Source of the DNA: Nitrospirales bacterium
GTDB lineage: Bacteria; Nitrospirota; Nitrospiria; Nitrospirales; UBA8639
DNA length: 36,622 nt
Direction of reading: 5' to 3'
NCBI GenBank assembly: GCA_021604105.1
Contig: BQIW01000043.1
Coordinates: 1 to 36,622, forward strand
Part shown: piece by piece, positions 2,857 to 27,223 of the stretch
How positions within the stretch are numbered: the first letter of the stretch is position 1
How the letters are laid out: each line of letters starts with the position of its first letter
Notes under the pieces: model-generated
Told to the model about the DNA's origin: nothing
The model's database searches: none
Seen by the model: only the letters and a program-made list of their open reading frames with translations
Made by a program: the position numbers and the translations under genes

Positions 2857-3260
2857 ATCTTCATCCTCATTTTTACGTATCCATCCCCTCATTTGTAAGC
2901 AGAGGTCGCCCCCTACAGAATGCACCACACAATTGAGGGAGAAAGAAATATCAAAGGCGTATCGTCAACATTTATAAAGTCCCAGTATAGTTCATAACCC
3001 ACATAGCACTTCTACTCGACCAGGTGACTGTGTCTACTTCAGCCCCCCTTTCAAAGAATGAGTTAGGGAAAAACTTCGGAATCAGCCGCCCAAAAAGGGG
3101 AAAAATTTTTACTTACAAGATACAAGGAAATACGGTTTCAACCCAACATCGCCCGTCGGTAATCGATGCTCAACCTTTTCCAATGGATCCCGGCAACCTA
3201 GTGCGGGAATAGGGTTATTACTCCCACGATCTTCAAGGTTTTGGCCCCATAGATAGGAAC
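2857..3260. other. Intergenic region upstream of aguB
   Basis: About 400 bases with no convincing gene. It must carry the aguB promoter on the minus strand; a TTGACG at 2968-2963 (read on the minus strand) is the only hexamer resembling a -35 box, with no good -10 partner. A 62-codon plus-strand frame at 3024-3212 lacks a ribosome binding site and any recognisable motif. Near 3200-3220 a weak GGGA/TCCC hairpin follows the stop of the next gene on the minus strand and could be part of a terminator. Confidence 0.4.
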
Positions 3261-4046
3261 CTATTCGTTAGGACGGAGCATAGCACAGCCGGGATCGCGA
3301 GCCACAAACATCCCGGCCACTTTCCGATCTTGTTCCTTGAAGGCCTTGTGCCACCAGCAGGCCGCATTCCAGAGATGCTCCGGGGCGCTATTGCGCTCGG
3401 AGGTACCAGGGGTCACAGCCAAACCCAGCCCTTCAAAGATGAATTCAACATAAGAGGACGCAGCTATCGGCGTGCCTTCCCGCAACGGATTACGTTTGGC
3501 CCCTTGTGACCAGAGATAGCTTTGCCAGACTCCCAACATCTCCCAAAAATTGTACCGCACGCGATCCTGATTCCAGTTCATTGCCCGTTTCTTAAGCTTT
3601 TTGGCATCCTCGTCAGACATACTCACCGCCACCAACCCCACATTGGCATCAACATCCTTATTTTCATACAGGCCTAAGGTGCCTTCGTTAATACCATTAC
3701 ATTCCGGCCTCGGGAAAATCCCATTCCGTGGATGCAGCGGAACCTCCAGAATCGGCAGGGACCTCAACGAGGTACGAGAGGTCACCGGTTCTGCCACCAC
3801 AAAGACATGCGACCAAAAACTCGGGCGAAGATCCCAGCGGACCATAGACTGAGCCGTTCGTAGAGTATGCCCGGGAACATCCCGGCTGCCGATCAGGCCC
3901 ACGGTCATCAACCCACGATTGCCGATGTCCTGTTTCTGCAAGGAGGCAAAGGCCTCATCAAAAAACTGCAGGTTGGTGCGTTTCCCATATTTGCTGGTCC
4001 AGTCTTTAATGGCCGGATTTCTGGTCGAAGTTTGAGAGTGACGCAT
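3261..4046 (-). CDS. Unknown protein, possibly a degenerate permuted papain-like (NlpC/P60-type) fold
   Basis: 261 residues, no signal peptide or membrane segment visible. I do not recognise the family with certainty. The segment WSHVFVVAEP (about residue 80) followed much later by PIAASSYVEFIFEGLG resembles the His-first, Cys-last order of permuted NlpC/P60-like enzymes such as YiiX, where the second motif normally reads CS(E/Q)xV; here the expected cysteine is a serine, so if the fold is right the protein is probably inactive or uses another nucleophile. The ATG at 4046 has AAAGGA nine bases upstream. It follows the PhoD-like gene by 61 bases and is likely the last gene of that operon. Confidence 0.65.
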   Translation of the reverse strand: MRHSQTSTRNPAIKDWTSKYGKRTNLQFFDEAFASLQKQDIGNRGLMTVGLIGSRDVPGHTLRTAQSMVRWDLRPSFWSHVFVVAEPVTSRTSLRSLPILEVPLHPRNGIFPRPECNGINEGTLGLYENKDVDANVGLVAVSMSDEDAKKLKKRAMNWNQDRVRYNFWEMLGVWQSYLWSQGAKRNPLREGTPIAASSYVEFIFEGLGLAVTPGTSERNSAPEHLWNAACWWHKAFKEQDRKVAGMFVARDPGCAMLRPNE

Positions 4047-4107
4047 GATGGGTTCCTTTCTAGGGGTGGCTCAGAAAACACTCGACAGACTAGGTCAATT
4101 ACTCCCA

Positions 4108-5556
4108 CTACCGGAGCAACAACTCCTTGTTCCACAGGCGCGTGAGGGGACCTCCCAGACCTTGAGGTGGAGCCGTTTCATCCCAATCAATTTCAATAAC
4201 TTTGGCAGGAAGGCTCCATAGTTCCAATTCGAATCGTATGCGTGGCGATCCTCCAAACTGACTTCCGGGAACTATGCGCACGAGACCCACATTATTCTGA
4301 ATGGTCATGATGTCGATGTTGGTATGCGGATCAATCCGCCACACCGACTCTTTTCCTTCCGCATTGGGAAGAATTCGGATCTTGTTTGGCGGGGATTCGG
4401 GTTTAGTATTCCCTGGATTAATCATGGCTGCCGGAGAAGCGATGAACTCCGGCACCCCATAAGGCGCATCCTGAAATGGCCCGTGGGCTTCCGCATACCG
4501 TCCCGTATGAATATCTCCCGACAGAACTAAGATATCATGTGGTCGATGCTGGGAGTTCTGCCCGGCGAGGGACCGTTCGAGCACCCCCCACAGACGGGCA
4601 TAATCTTGTTTGAAATTCGATAAGGAATGGTCACGAAAATCCCCGTCTTTTTGAAAGAGCGGTTGGCCCAGCGCCAACACTCCTGGGCCTTTCAATCCCT
4701 GTTGCCAGGCTTCCAACGCTTCCCATTGTTCCACTGACATGAAATGGCTGGTGCCTTTGTCGTTGCACGCTTCGCGCTCGGAGCGGGTGTCGGTAATAAA
4801 AAACGAGACCGGCTCGATCTCGAACCGGTACCACCGAGCCTCATCGGGATTCAGACATCGTTGATACTGGTAATAGAGTTCTTCAGCCCCACCTCCATAT
4901 ATTTTGCAATTCTTGGAATACCAGGTTTGAGGCAAATGAATTTGTTTTTCAGGGTAATCGTTCCAATATTCATGATCGTCACAGGTAAAAAAGTTTGGAC
5001 ATGTTTGCAAGGCTTCCCGGTAGGCCCCATCTCCCCAATATTGGGCATACCGCTTGGCATAAAGTTTGATGCCCTCATCCCCTAAATCCCAGGCATTCGG
5101 CCAATCTCCATAGACCTGATCACCCAGTAATAATTTAAAGTGCGGATGAGCCAACTGCCCCAACTCCTGAAGACCGGACCGGTAATATCCCTCGCGGTCA
5201 TTGTTATGCCAAAAACAGGAGGCAAACAGAAAGGTCACCGGTTTAGCGGTGACCTGGTACGGCATCGTCCACCAATGAAAGGCCTGGTTCTCCTGATTCG
5301 TTGACAATGTGACAGCATAGAGGGCGCCTTCCGGTGGACCTGGAGTGTTGAGCGTAAGGAACATCACGCCCATTCGCCTTTTCAATCCTGGAATTCGGGG
5401 AAGAAGTGTCCATTTACTCTGGGACGGGACCATCGCATTCTTGTGCCGCACCTCGACTTGCGGCGGAGAAAAACTTTTTTCACCTTTTTGCGAACACCAA
5501 ATCCGCCAGCCTCGCCCCTCCATCAACGGCGCACCCGGAACAATCCACAAATTCAT
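4108..5556 (-). CDS. PhoD-like metallophosphatase
   Basis: A 482-residue phosphodiesterase/phosphomonoesterase of the PhoD-like calcineurin superfamily. The metal-binding landmarks are visible in order: FASC (111-114), LLGDQVYGDW (143-152), DDHEYWNDYP (193-202) and, further on, VLSGDIHTGRY. There is no signal peptide, unlike secreted alkaline phosphatase D enzymes, so it probably works in the cytoplasm; the substrate is unknown. An N-terminal beta-rich region of about 100 residues precedes the catalytic part. The ATG at 5556 is preceded by AAAGG at suitable distance. It starts 27 bases after the stop of the YihY gene, so the two are probably co-transcribed. Confidence 0.85.
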   Translation of the reverse strand: MNLWIVPGAPLMEGRGWRIWCSQKGEKSFSPPQVEVRHKNAMVPSQSKWTLLPRIPGLKRRMGVMFLTLNTPGPPEGALYAVTLSTNQENQAFHWWTMPYQVTAKPVTFLFASCFWHNNDREGYYRSGLQELGQLAHPHFKLLLGDQVYGDWPNAWDLGDEGIKLYAKRYAQYWGDGAYREALQTCPNFFTCDDHEYWNDYPEKQIHLPQTWYSKNCKIYGGGAEELYYQYQRCLNPDEARWYRFEIEPVSFFITDTRSEREACNDKGTSHFMSVEQWEALEAWQQGLKGPGVLALGQPLFQKDGDFRDHSLSNFKQDYARLWGVLERSLAGQNSQHRPHDILVLSGDIHTGRYAEAHGPFQDAPYGVPEFIASPAAMINPGNTKPESPPNKIRILPNAEGKESVWRIDPHTNIDIMTIQNNVGLVRIVPGSQFGGSPRIRFELELWSLPAKVIEIDWDETAPPQGLGGPLTRLWNKELLLR

Positions 5557-12002: not shown

Positions 12003-13030
12003 CCTTATCAATACCCTCGTGATACTTGGTGGGTCATCCGACTAGGGTCTTCTCCTGAAAGATGGACTATCCAACCCTTCTATTCAGAATTGAAAAGTCA
12101 GACAGACAGAACAATGACAGGGGCATGAATCTCTATTTAAGGATCAACCAATTCAACTTAAACGATAGATTCTCTATTATTCCCTACCGAGATTTCACAT
12201 GTTTACCGTTTTGATTCTTTGATCCAGTAAACTTAAGCTGGAACCGTTTAGACCGATCAACAGTCCTGTCGTAATTAATTCTTTGCGGAATTCGTCTCCC
12301 AAGATGCTTGCATCAGTGTCGTCCCGGCTATCTCTTCCGTTGAATGCGGCCACATCCATTGAGGCCATATACGGATCGTGGTTCATGCTCAAGTCTGACC
12401 CCACCCCCAAACCGCACTTTTTACCCCTTTTGGATTTCAGGACCACACCTAACATGGTATTTCGTCATTCTGCATCGAGTTGCTTTGCGTCACCCCAATT
12501 CGACCTGGTGTCTTTGGTCTATTTCACCAAATCAGGTCACTCCGTTAAACATTCCCTGATGGCCCAGAACGTCAGATGTTCTTTTAACCTCTGAAGAGAA
12601 AAAGAAGAATGCAAAGGCGGTAGGAAAACCGTGAAAAGTAAAGATCCAACCATGTGATGCTGGACACGTAATCGTATCCACCTTCCCCACGGTCTATAGC
12701 TAAATCAGAAAGCCACAAGGAGACCAGAAGGCCTACCCATCAAGCCATTCACACTCACAGGACAGGATATATTGAAGTCTTAGAAATTCAACACGAAAAG
12801 TCGAAAGAACGGAAGGACCACCAGCGGATAATTTCTCTAAATAAAACCGAATTCTACCAGGAGGGGATTCAAAGAGAATTCTCAAAATGATCATTGCATC
12901 TGATGGTCAGAGGAAGTCCGTTTCCTACACAACAATTTTACTCCCAACCATTTCTGTCAATAATGATTCAAGCAGGGCGATCAATTCTGAACAGAGGGCA
13001 TTGCCGGAACGATGCCATCAATGAGATGGG
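12003..13030. other. Intergenic region of about 1 kb without a supported gene
   Basis: This lies between the 3' ends of the kinase gene (plus) and the TadD-like gene (minus), so it is a convergent region. Short frames occur on both strands (for example 12195-12455 minus and 12283-12594 plus) but they overlap each other, lack ribosome binding sites and match nothing I know. A hairpin-like GACCTG/CAGGTC pair lies at about 12501-12540. It may hold decayed genes that I cannot identify. Confidence 0.5.
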
Positions 13031-24404: not shown

Positions 24405-24500
24405 CTCGCCGTACCTTCGGCAACCCGGCTATCAGAGACCAACCCTGACCCGTGGTTTTGCGCCCACGCCTTTCGACGTGTTCGCCCTTATCGGGAAGGG
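24405..24500 (-). ncRNA. Cyclic di-GMP-I (GEMM-I) riboswitch upstream of the Flp pilin genes
   Basis: Read on the minus strand the core is present in order: GGGCGAACACGTC, the tetraloop GAAA, GGCGTGGGCGCAAAACCACG, GGTCAG, a short loop, CTGATAGCCGGGTTGCCGAA. This fits the GEMM-I layout of a CAAACC-like 5' block, a helix capped by a GNRA tetraloop (CACGTC/GGCGTG), the GCAAA-CC-CGGG joining segment, a second helix (GGTCAG/CTGAtagCC), and a 3' GGGTTGCCGA strand. A few normally conserved positions differ (GGGCGCAAAACC instead of GGGACGCAAAGCC; GCGAACAC instead of GCAAACC). It lies about 85 bases upstream of the 57-aa pilin. It should sense c-di-GMP and control pilin expression. Confidence 0.85.
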
Positions 24501-24809
24501 GCACCCGACCGAATCCATGTTTCATGGTCATGAATAAATGTTCGTAGACCCAAGGAAATCTCCCATTTCGTATTCTGTGACTCTTTGTTTTCATGCTTCA
24601 TTATCGACCTCTTCAGGGAAAACTTGCCGACGTATTTTGATGAATATGTTTCCAATTGATTACGGGTACAACAATTTGTCTCCCTTTGTTAACCAAGGAG
24701 ATCAAAATAATTCGGAACGTACCTCGAGCACGTAAGGCGGAAGCCGGTTTGGAAGGGTGGTGAGGTTGTCTCCCACCCTTACTCGACAGGTACGACGTGT
24801 GATGGCAAC

Positions 24810-24973
24810 AGGCGTGAGCGACATAGTCGGAATTTGTTTTACCCACCCGACCTACTGATGAGGTCCCACTACTCCACCATTTTTTAGTCATACCCGACAT
24901 TAATAATCAGGCAACCCTCGGTGAGGGTCTTCGGATAGAACTCCGGTTAACTTACGACAGGGATGACGGAGGG
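24810..24973 (+). repeat. 164-nt repeated element, copy A
   Basis: Aligns without net length change to 26950-27113 (copy B). The start AGGCGTGAGCGACAT matches AGGCATGAGCCACAT (18 of 22 columns in the first block), and the last part from CGACATT to TTAACT matches in 43 of 58 columns, followed by the shared TGACGGAGGG. Both copies are in the same orientation, 2,140 bases apart. The first block can form a small hairpin with a GTGA loop. Function unknown; strand given is arbitrary. Confidence 0.6.
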
Positions 24974-24978
24974 AAATT

Positions 24979-25059
24979 ATGAAAATGAAGAAAAAAGGCG
25001 CTGATGATGCAAAAAAATACCCTGTAAATTTATCTGTGCGAAATCTGGTTTGGCGATGA
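24979..25059 (+). CDS. Possible 26-aa basic peptide after repeat copy A
   Basis: ATG at 24979 follows GGAGGG at a good distance (the end of the repeat element serves as the Shine-Dalgarno). The peptide MKMKKKGADDAKKYPVNLSV plus six more residues is Lys-rich. Copy B has no start codon at the same place, so a leader peptide is possible but weakly supported. Confidence 0.18.
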   Translation: MKMKKKGADDAKKYPVNLSVRNLVWR

Positions 25060-25127
25060 CCCCATACAAGTCAGATTAAATCTGGATACGGAATCCTATC
25101 AATTTTTCTTTGGGAGAAACTTGGAAA

Positions 25128-25143
25128 CACTATCAAGATAGTG
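25128..25143. promoter_or_regulatory. Perfect 16-bp palindrome, possible operator
   Basis: CACTATC-AA-GATAGTG, symmetric, in an otherwise featureless AT-rich stretch about 430 bases upstream of the PAP2 gene. Could be a binding site of a dimeric regulator; no other copy was noticed in the window. Confidence 0.25.
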
Positions 25144-25573
25144 AGGAAATACCCCGAAAAGACTTTCGGCTGAAGTACTATTTAGGACACTTCCCAAGAT
25201 TGTCAATCTGAAACACCTGGCTTTTTCCGATGCCGTTTCTGACCTCACCTGTAATCATCCAACTAAATCATTGGGAAAATCAGTTGAAATTTTGTTCCGA
25301 TAACCACTGGTCCTCCCTATCCACTGTATTAAGTTCAAAGACCATCCCAACACATATAGGGATGAATAGAATTTATGTGAACACCCAAGAATGTCGTCCC
25401 ACTCTTCACAAGGCTCACCGCAAACCAACGACAGAACTACTGGGCACGATGAAGGTTTCCAAGTCGATCAGGACAAGTTCGTCGAACTATGCCCAACAGC
25501 TTAAATACTATTCAACGGCGGGATGGGTACCTGCTCACAACTACACTCCCCCAATTTGAACACGAGGACATTC

Positions 25574-26584
25574 ATGATGAGAGTGGGAAATATGATATTG
25601 GTAAAGCCTTGGCTATGGCCAGTCGAACGCTTTTTACGCAATACCATTTTAGTATTAGGAGCCTTCGATTTGGGCATGGTTTATATACGCCATATCGGAT
25701 TCGATTGGTTTTCCTATTCCTTTTTTTTCGCTTTGGGAATTTTCATGATTGCCGTGGGACTTTTCTACCGTTCAAGCGGGCGTAGTGAACGTATCTCTAT
25801 GACGTTAATGGCGACCGGGTTGCTTCTTCTGTTTACAATTGTTCTATCAGTTTTTGGTTATCTGTTGCTCCCGCTATGGCGAGAACCCATTGACCCGTTT
25901 CTGGTCCAGGTCGATGCTTGGTTCGGATATTCATGGCCGGACATTGTCCAATTTGCCGGTCGACATCCATTTTTAAATGAATTGACGCGTTATGCCTATT
26001 TATCTTCCATACCACAAATGGCATTACTGTTTATCATTTTAGGATTTGGAGGCAAGCAAAAAGAACTCCATGTCTTCATCCTTTCAATTACCGCTTCAGG
26101 CCTGGCGACGCTTGGGTTTTGGGCGCTGTTTCCGGCATTTGGCACCAGCGTGCTCTATGACATTTCCGGCTCGATTGAACAGGCCGCAAGACCACTTGTT
26201 GGCTCGGCCTACGGTGCCGAATTATTACGTCTAGGAGCTGAAGGGCCTAAATTTATTTCTCCAAGGGATATGGGAGGCCTAGTGGCTTTTCCTTCCTATC
26301 ACACGATCATGGCTATTTTGGCTATGTATTCAGCACGAACCACTCGCTGGTGGTTCCCCATACTGGTCATCATCAATCTGTTCGTCCTTCCAGGAGTGCT
26401 TATCCATGGCGGGCATCACTTGATCGATGTATTCGGCGGATTATTGACTGCCTGTTGCATCATATACGTGGCAAGGCAGGTTGTGACTGGAAATGAAATC
26501 CAGGATGACGGAGTATTTGGCGCCGCCGAACAGGAAATAACGTTTATTAAAAGTTCCTCAGACATGTCGGGATTACACCCGTAG
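25574..26584 (+). CDS. PAP2-superfamily membrane protein (Aur1/Ipt1-like phosphatase/transferase)
   Basis: A 336-residue protein with about six or seven membrane segments. The C-terminal part has the PAP2 motifs GLVAFPSYHT (SxHT-type) and GGHHLIDVFGG (HxxxDV type), which carry the two catalytic histidines and the aspartate of lipid phosphate phosphatases and inositolphosphoryl-transferase-like enzymes; the N-terminal KxxxxxxRP motif is not obvious. The ATG at 25574 has GAGG six bases upstream. It heads a plus-strand group with the cyclase-like and DUF362 genes, though 640 bases separate it from them. Likely acts on a lipid or polyprenyl phosphate at the inner membrane. Confidence 0.8.
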   Translation: MMRVGNMILVKPWLWPVERFLRNTILVLGAFDLGMVYIRHIGFDWFSYSFFFALGIFMIAVGLFYRSSGRSERISMTLMATGLLLLFTIVLSVFGYLLLPLWREPIDPFLVQVDAWFGYSWPDIVQFAGRHPFLNELTRYAYLSSIPQMALLFIILGFGGKQKELHVFILSITASGLATLGFWALFPAFGTSVLYDISGSIEQAARPLVGSAYGAELLRLGAEGPKFISPRDMGGLVAFPSYHTIMAILAMYSARTTRWWFPILVIINLFVLPGVLIHGGHHLIDVFGGLLTACCIIYVARQVVTGNEIQDDGVFGAAEQEITFIKSSSDMSGLHP

Positions 26585-26662
26585 GCCTTATTCCGATGGT
26601 CCCGTCGGTCACAAGTTGCCTCGTTTCGATAAGCACGGAGTTCGACATGATTTTTATTGGCT

Positions 26663-26732
26663 GCCGGCTTAGTACGCCAGGCTTTAAAACGCCGTGACCG
26701 GGCACCCTCTGAAAGCGGGTGAATCTTGTTTT
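26663..26732 (+). terminator. Possible transcription terminators after the PAP2 gene
   Basis: Two hairpins follow the stop codon by 80-120 bases: GCCGGC/GCCAGGC followed by TTTAAAA, and CACCC/GGGTG followed by AATCTTGTTTT. Either could stop transcription on the plus strand. Confidence 0.35.
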
Positions 26733-26949
26733 CCCCCTTTCATGCCACCGCACCAATTCTCCCACCTATCGCCGTCTTTCCGCCGCACTTGCATCGGAAT
26801 CCATCCAGGACGACATATTGTCGGGTAGCACATTCCTAATCTGACCTATCCATACAAAAACGTGAGACCCTCGCCGCTCTGTAGTTGCGTAGGCCGGGTT
26901 AGACTGTCTGCGGTCAAAACCCGATAGACCCATGACCTAGGGAAACGAC

Positions 26950-27113
26950 AGGCATGAGCCACATTTGTCGGTTTACGCTTTGCTCACACGGCCTTCCGAC
27001 GAGGTACCCTTACCCCCACCCTTTTCCGGCCTGCTCGACATTTTTATCGGGAATCCATCGTTGAGGTTCTTCGGATGGATCCAGGCTAACTACCATCGGG
27101 AGTGACGGAGGGG
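26950..27113 (+). repeat. 164-nt repeated element, copy B
   Basis: Partner of 24810-24973. In this copy the first block folds well: CGACA (26946-26950) pairs with TGTCG, enclosing GGC-ATGA-GCC; the later part folds as GGAATCCATC/GATGGATCC around the conserved GAGGTTCTTCG. The element ends 110 bases before the cyclase-like gene, with a TATAAT just after it. Function unknown. Confidence 0.6.
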
Positions 27114-27128: not shown

Positions 27129-27223
27129 TAGATCGTGATCTGGTTTTTTAAGGTTCTTCCGTTTTAAACCGAACAACATGAGAGATCACATTTTCAACAT
27201 GTTTTGGTTTCCAATTCTACTCA

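Follow-up and report, generated by a model that had tools for sequence, protein, structure and literature searches.

The PAP2 locus and the two blocks that flank it

The window analysed here is a 36,622-nt stretch of DNA from a Nitrospirales bacterium (assembly GCA_021604105.1, contig BQIW01000043.1), in which a PAP2 gene (25523-26584) stands upstream of a squalene-hopene-cyclase-like (SQHC) gene and is flanked by two similar intergenic blocks in direct orientation. Eight of 20 congeners have the PAP2 gene, which in every case lies at this site; in G014, G012 and G018 (genomes are given by our own numbers) its reading frame is broken, so that the gene is in the course of gain or loss. A tree of the SQHC protein did not settle which; the G014 row, read across a frame shift, had a very long branch. 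A c-di-GMP-I-GGC riboswitch (24415-24495, minus strand; 70.7 bits against a gathering score of 59) lies about 300 nt from the copies and is present at the same place in all eight examined congeners with this flank, including G009, which lacks the PAP2 gene. Upstream of the SQHC gene, the block 27146-27182 (TTTTTAAGGTTC...TTTAAACCGAACAACATG) is 78-100% identical in all orthologues and is likely to be a promoter or leader element.

The initial annotation described two 164-nt copies that align end to end without net gaps and share a number of short sequence blocks. These blocks are present in both copies, and the homology is well above chance: aligned locally with gaps, 24808-24974 and 26948-27113 give a score of 60, while 2000 dinucleotide-preserving shuffles gave a mean of 9.8 (sd 1.3) and a maximum of 18. 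The net lengths are almost equal, as had been claimed, but the alignment is not gap-free; several small compensating indels are needed, and strictly ungapped identity is 72 of 164 columns (shuffles 42.8 +/- 5.5, maximum 63). On the right, the homology of both copies ends at TGACGGAGGG. On the left, pairwise alignment places the limit at 24808 and 26948, and the consensus built from relatives places it at 24759 for copy 1 and 26889 for copy 2. The full element is thus about 215-225 nt long, and the boundaries first drawn cut through it.

A DNA search of the own genome (a 4.9-Mb assembly in 217 contigs) with copy 2 found nothing convincing, because the copies are too diverged; congeners and a profile were needed. 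The locus occurs in public relatives whose genomes were assembled from metagenomes and bear the labels Nitrospirales, Nitrospiria or Nitrospirota. In the 20 genomes of the genus the copy-2 search returned six orthologues and well over 100 other places, most of the non-orthologous matches being confined to about positions 107-180 of the query and some lying in tandem. The check proposed at the outset, that is, to search relatives, build an alignment and test for covariation, was the right one, and it yielded a dispersed family with compensatory changes.

Each copy is made of two parts, both of them formed by repetitive extragenic palindromes (REPs), short repeats that are dispersed in the genomes of the genus. 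In copy 2 the 5' part (26889-26994, plus strand) is a decayed head-to-head pair of GTAG-tagged REPs (nhmmer E=1.3e-10 against the genus consensus; 88% identity over 117 nt to a query built from the orthologues), reading GTAGGCCGGGTTAG...AACCCGA with the inverted partner GTCGGTTTACGC...GCTCACACGGCCTTC. Its 3' part (27031-27107, plus strand) is a decayed head-to-head heterodimer of CGTC-tagged REPs that matches a profile of 39 dispersed copies with E=9.9e-16. The corresponding parts of copy 1 are a strongly decayed GTAG pair (24759-24855, plus strand; nhmmer E=9.4e-8, and 71% identity by blastn over 24759-24862) and a decayed CGTC heterodimer (24887-24968, plus strand; profile E=3.5e-10). A spacer of about 35 nt, common to both window copies, separates the two parts. 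The 5' half of the original alignment is the inverted arm of the GTAG pair, and the 3' half is the CGTC inverted pair, a palindrome of about 81 bp. A probable further GTAG REP, inverted and decayed (GACATATTGTCGGGTAGCAC...CTAATCTGACCTATCC), was read by eye upstream of copy 2 at 26808-26850 on the minus strand; this stretch aligns to its G002 orthologue, which is clearer (ACACATTGTCGGGTTACGCTTGGCTAATCTGACCTACC) and in turn aligns with a GTAG REP of G019. Elsewhere in the window there is a weak third match to the CGTC dimer, at 3142-3210 (plus strand, E=5e-4).

GTAG-tagged REPs and an associated RAYT gene

The GTAG and CGTC REP superfamilies have both been published (Di Nocera et al. 2013, PMC3733652). 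In the genus studied here the GTAG pair has the consensus GTAGGTCGGGTTAGGCCGTCC.CGGCCGTAACCCGAC ... GTCGGGTTACGCTACGCTAACCCGACCTAC, in which the first REP shows the GTAG tag and the imperfect palindrome that are also read in copy 2 of the window. The tag, the imperfect palindrome (GTCGGGTTA/TAACCCGAC) and the head-to-head pairing are shared with the GTAG REPs, BIMEs and REPINs that accompany genes for REP-associated tyrosine transposases (RAYTs; PMC2817692; PMC3733652). Published GTAG REPs often exceed 100 per genome, whereas we detected a modest 0-9 per genome in a blastn-type search that diverged singletons would escape. Most GTAG REPs of G019 (loci L115-L119 and L128) are preceded by (T)TGA, giving TTGAGTAGG, which may belong to the REP itself or reflect a preferred target.

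A RAYT gene is present in a relative. In G002 (locus L147) a GTAG REP of the window-copy family at 4003-4048 is followed by the RAYT gene at 4092-4547 (NF047646, scoring 133.5 bits where the cut-off is 80) and by the inverted partner REP at 4586-4618. This gene lies on the same contig as the G002 PAP2 locus, about 18 kb away. The HUH motif of RAYTs usually takes the form HLH; in the G002 protein HLC stands in its place, and judging from this substitution the G002 RAYT may be inactive. The placement of the gene between two inverted REPs is the arrangement described for all RAYTs (Nunvar et al. 2010, PMC2817692); the variant motif and the association with CGTC dimers set the system apart from the published ones. 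No RAYT in the own genome exceeds the family cut-off of 80 (best match 55.8), and the window gap at 12003-13030, which corresponds to the RAYT site in G002, holds no RAYT relic by REP or CGTC match or by eye. The other RAYT loci in eight congeners have no adjoining GTAG REP of the window-copy family.

CGTC-tagged REPs

Alignment of 39 dispersed places gives a clean consensus of about 81 bp, GTCATTCCCGACATTTTTTATCGGGAATCCATC - spacer - GATGGATCCCCGCTAACNACCTGCGGGGATGACG. Its ends read GTCAT... and ...ATGACG, so that (C)GTC lies outside on both sides, and TGACGG is retained at the right end of the window copies. The stems, ATTCCCGA/TCGGGAAT and ATCCCCGC/GCGGGGAT, are 8-9 bp long with AT at the first two positions, and the CCA tails (...GGGAATCCATC ... 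GATGGATCCCC...) show the two units head to head with their tags outermost. Stem pairing in the dispersed copies holds in 95-97% of cells (average 96.5%) and falls to 25-55% when the partners are slid by one to three columns. Nineteen cells are altered on both sides of a pair, compared with 4.5 in shuffles, indicating compensatory change.

These features are those of the CGTC superfamily, whose units carry a CGTC (or TGTC/CCTC) tag on the unpaired end, have a stem of 8-9 bp and a CCA tail and occur mostly as head-to-head dimers (PMC3733652). With the families CGTC-1 to CGTC-4, which include dRS3 of Neisseria and RPE-4 and RPE-6 of Rickettsia (PMC3733652), the repeats share the outer CGTC tag, the 8-bp stem starting with AT, the CCA tail, head-to-head dimers, two-stem heterodimers, intergenic location and high copy number. 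They differ in having loops of about 8-9 nt in place of 4-5 nt and in often adjoining GTAG REPs. Since other loops are allowed for CGTC REPs in Bradyrhizobium, K. olearia and M. prima (PMC3733652), the longer loops mark these repeats as a variant and do not exclude them from the superfamily.

Each of the 20 congeners has matches to a covariance model, at least 8-113 per genome, and the own genome has at least 21, among the first 150 candidates scored for each; a near-perfect palindrome may score on both strands, so that double counting is possible in these numbers. CGTC dimers also occur in several other genera of the same family, and a handful in a few genomes elsewhere in the order.

Decay at the orthologous sites

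The orthologue of copy 2 in G002 keeps all 20 pairs of the family structure and is the top match of the covariance model across the genus, while copy 2 of the window keeps 14 of 20 and copy 1 keeps 12. The initial description of the blocks as two old and diverged copies of an element is right. Copy 2 stands at the same position in six congeners, 110 nt before a gene. It is 75-90% identical to its orthologues in the 5' half and 79-87% in the CGTC part, values that resemble those of the intergenic DNA to its left (64-86%); the short block at 27146-27182 is preserved at least as well (78-100%). The same sites have been rearranged in several congeners: at the copy-2 site G016 has only the GTAG pair and G014 only the CGTC dimer, G012 has a copy 1 with its middle deleted, and the G009 locus retains the upstream flank and the SQHC gene and carries two CGTC dimers, without PAP2. 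Copy 1 is absent or truncated in most PAP2-bearing congeners. Inert repeats in the course of decay show just such a pattern. We found neither a clean empty site nor a target-site signature for either copy; the four congeners that lack copy 1 are too different around its site to show an empty site or a target duplication.

Origin and nature of the copies

In each window copy the 5' half and the 3' half match a consensus profile, and the tags, stems, tails and orientation agree with the published GTAG and CGTC superfamilies (PMC3733652). We therefore consider it very probable that the two blocks are decayed copies of a REP mosaic that consists of a GTAG head-to-head dimer, about 35 nt of spacer and a CGTC head-to-head heterodimer. 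Rfam gave no match at the copies on either strand, even at E up to 5, its two sub-threshold matches being unrelated and inside PAP2. Fossil REPs, which are mobile palindromic repeats, fit best and had not been among the readings first offered.

The initial annotation had offered three other readings, a structured RNA, a regulator-binding array and the ends of a decayed element that carried the PAP2 gene. For a regulator-binding array no evidence was found. A conserved RNA (a leader, riboswitch or small RNA) before the PAP2 and SQHC genes, giving them shared regulation, might be suggested by the constant position of copy 2 ahead of a gene in six congeners and by the paired and covarying stems of the family consensus. 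The palindromes are indeed real in the dispersed family, but that family has dozens of copies per genome at unrelated places, and the window copies themselves have broken stems, are conserved no better than the adjacent intergenic DNA and fold, on either strand, no better than shuffles. Together with the loss or truncation of copy 1 beside PAP2 in most congeners and the lack of an Rfam match, this makes a conserved RNA extremely improbable. Hardly better placed is the proposal that a decayed composite element, with the repeats as its ends, delivered the PAP2 gene, or later removed it when the two copies recombined. The direct orientation of the copies around a gene that is patchy in the genus and confined to this site would agree with it, as would the G009 locus, where flank, dimers and SQHC gene remain and PAP2 is missing; the reading is not supported, however, because dozens of places carry the repeats without PAP2 or any other cargo and because four congeners (G003, G010, G018 and G002) carry the gene with the downstream copy alone. 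The SQHC tree, which left gain and loss of PAP2 undecided, does not help it either.

Also to be weighed is how a REP mosaic came to be present twice. The two copies are neighbours and have the GTAG-CGTC spacer in common, which is what a single local duplication of a REP-containing intergenic segment would produce; yet the homology stops at the edges of the element, at TGACGGAGGG on the right and at the GTAG REP on the left, and the flanks are not shared. We regard such a duplication as possible but doubtful beside two insertions, and the choice bears on the origin of the copies, not on their identity.

We return to the REP mosaic, in which the window copies are most likely fossils of RAYT-mobilised REPs and not a conserved RNA or a regulator array. 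The analysis shows that the copies belong to a dispersed palindromic family with compensatory changes, that a RAYT lies between REPs in G002 and that these copies have decayed. From the literature we infer that a RAYT family of the G002 type mobilised them; their GTAG and CGTC parts would have moved together. REPs would spread when the RAYT processes, in trans, the hairpins that they form in single-stranded DNA, and some would have landed in the intergenic DNA on either side of PAP2 in an ancestor from which part of the genus descends. This transposase would subsequently have been lost from the own lineage, and the window copies would have eroded like the adjacent intergenic DNA. At present the copies probably do nothing beyond forming, at most, weak transcript hairpins.

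Joint movement of the two REP types can be examined in G019, where two loci share a whole composite of about 255 bp (GTAG pair, CGTC dimer, spacer and insert), with homology that runs from just before the GTAG tag to the CGTC end. This composite appears to have been copied as one unit. In addition, nine GTAG loci of G019 were examined, all found by similarity to a query from the window locus, and seven of them have a CGTC unit no more than 150 nt away; a rough placement estimate for this proximity gives p from 2e-12 to 7e-4, according to the values assumed for intergenic fraction and copy number and with insertion hot spots left out of the model. Two further observations point the same way: the window copies have the spacer in common, and in the RAYT cassette of G002 a CGTC unit precedes the GTAG REP by 14 nt. 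A third full copy did not turn up when the G019 composite was used as the query. Joint mobility is thus a possibility supported by few copies. No RAYT has CGTC units on both flanks, which counts against our preferred explanation, as do the modest number of GTAG REPs detected per genome, the lack of a clean empty site or target-site signature and the variant HUH motif of the G002 RAYT. We hold it unlikely that a RAYT in this genus moves GTAG and CGTC REPs jointly, as a single composite unit.

Implications

Overall the result is ordinary, REP types already described having turned up in a new setting. What had been a candidate for an unknown structured element is explained as repeat fossils and can be struck off the list, and annotators may note that REP mosaics can be mistaken for conserved leaders because they are still alignable among congeners. 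What is modestly new is the presence of both REP types in Nitrospirota and their joining as a composite, an arrangement that is itself modestly interesting. Nitrospirota is absent both from the phyla listed for GTAG REPs and from the five listed for CGTC REPs (PMC3733652), so that the range of both is extended to a further phylum. The composite may also be a case in which CGTC REPs, for which no transposase is known, are carried by a GTAG/RAYT system; if joint mobilisation is true, it would answer a question left open in 2013, in that CGTC REPs without a transposase of their own would ride with GTAG REPs.
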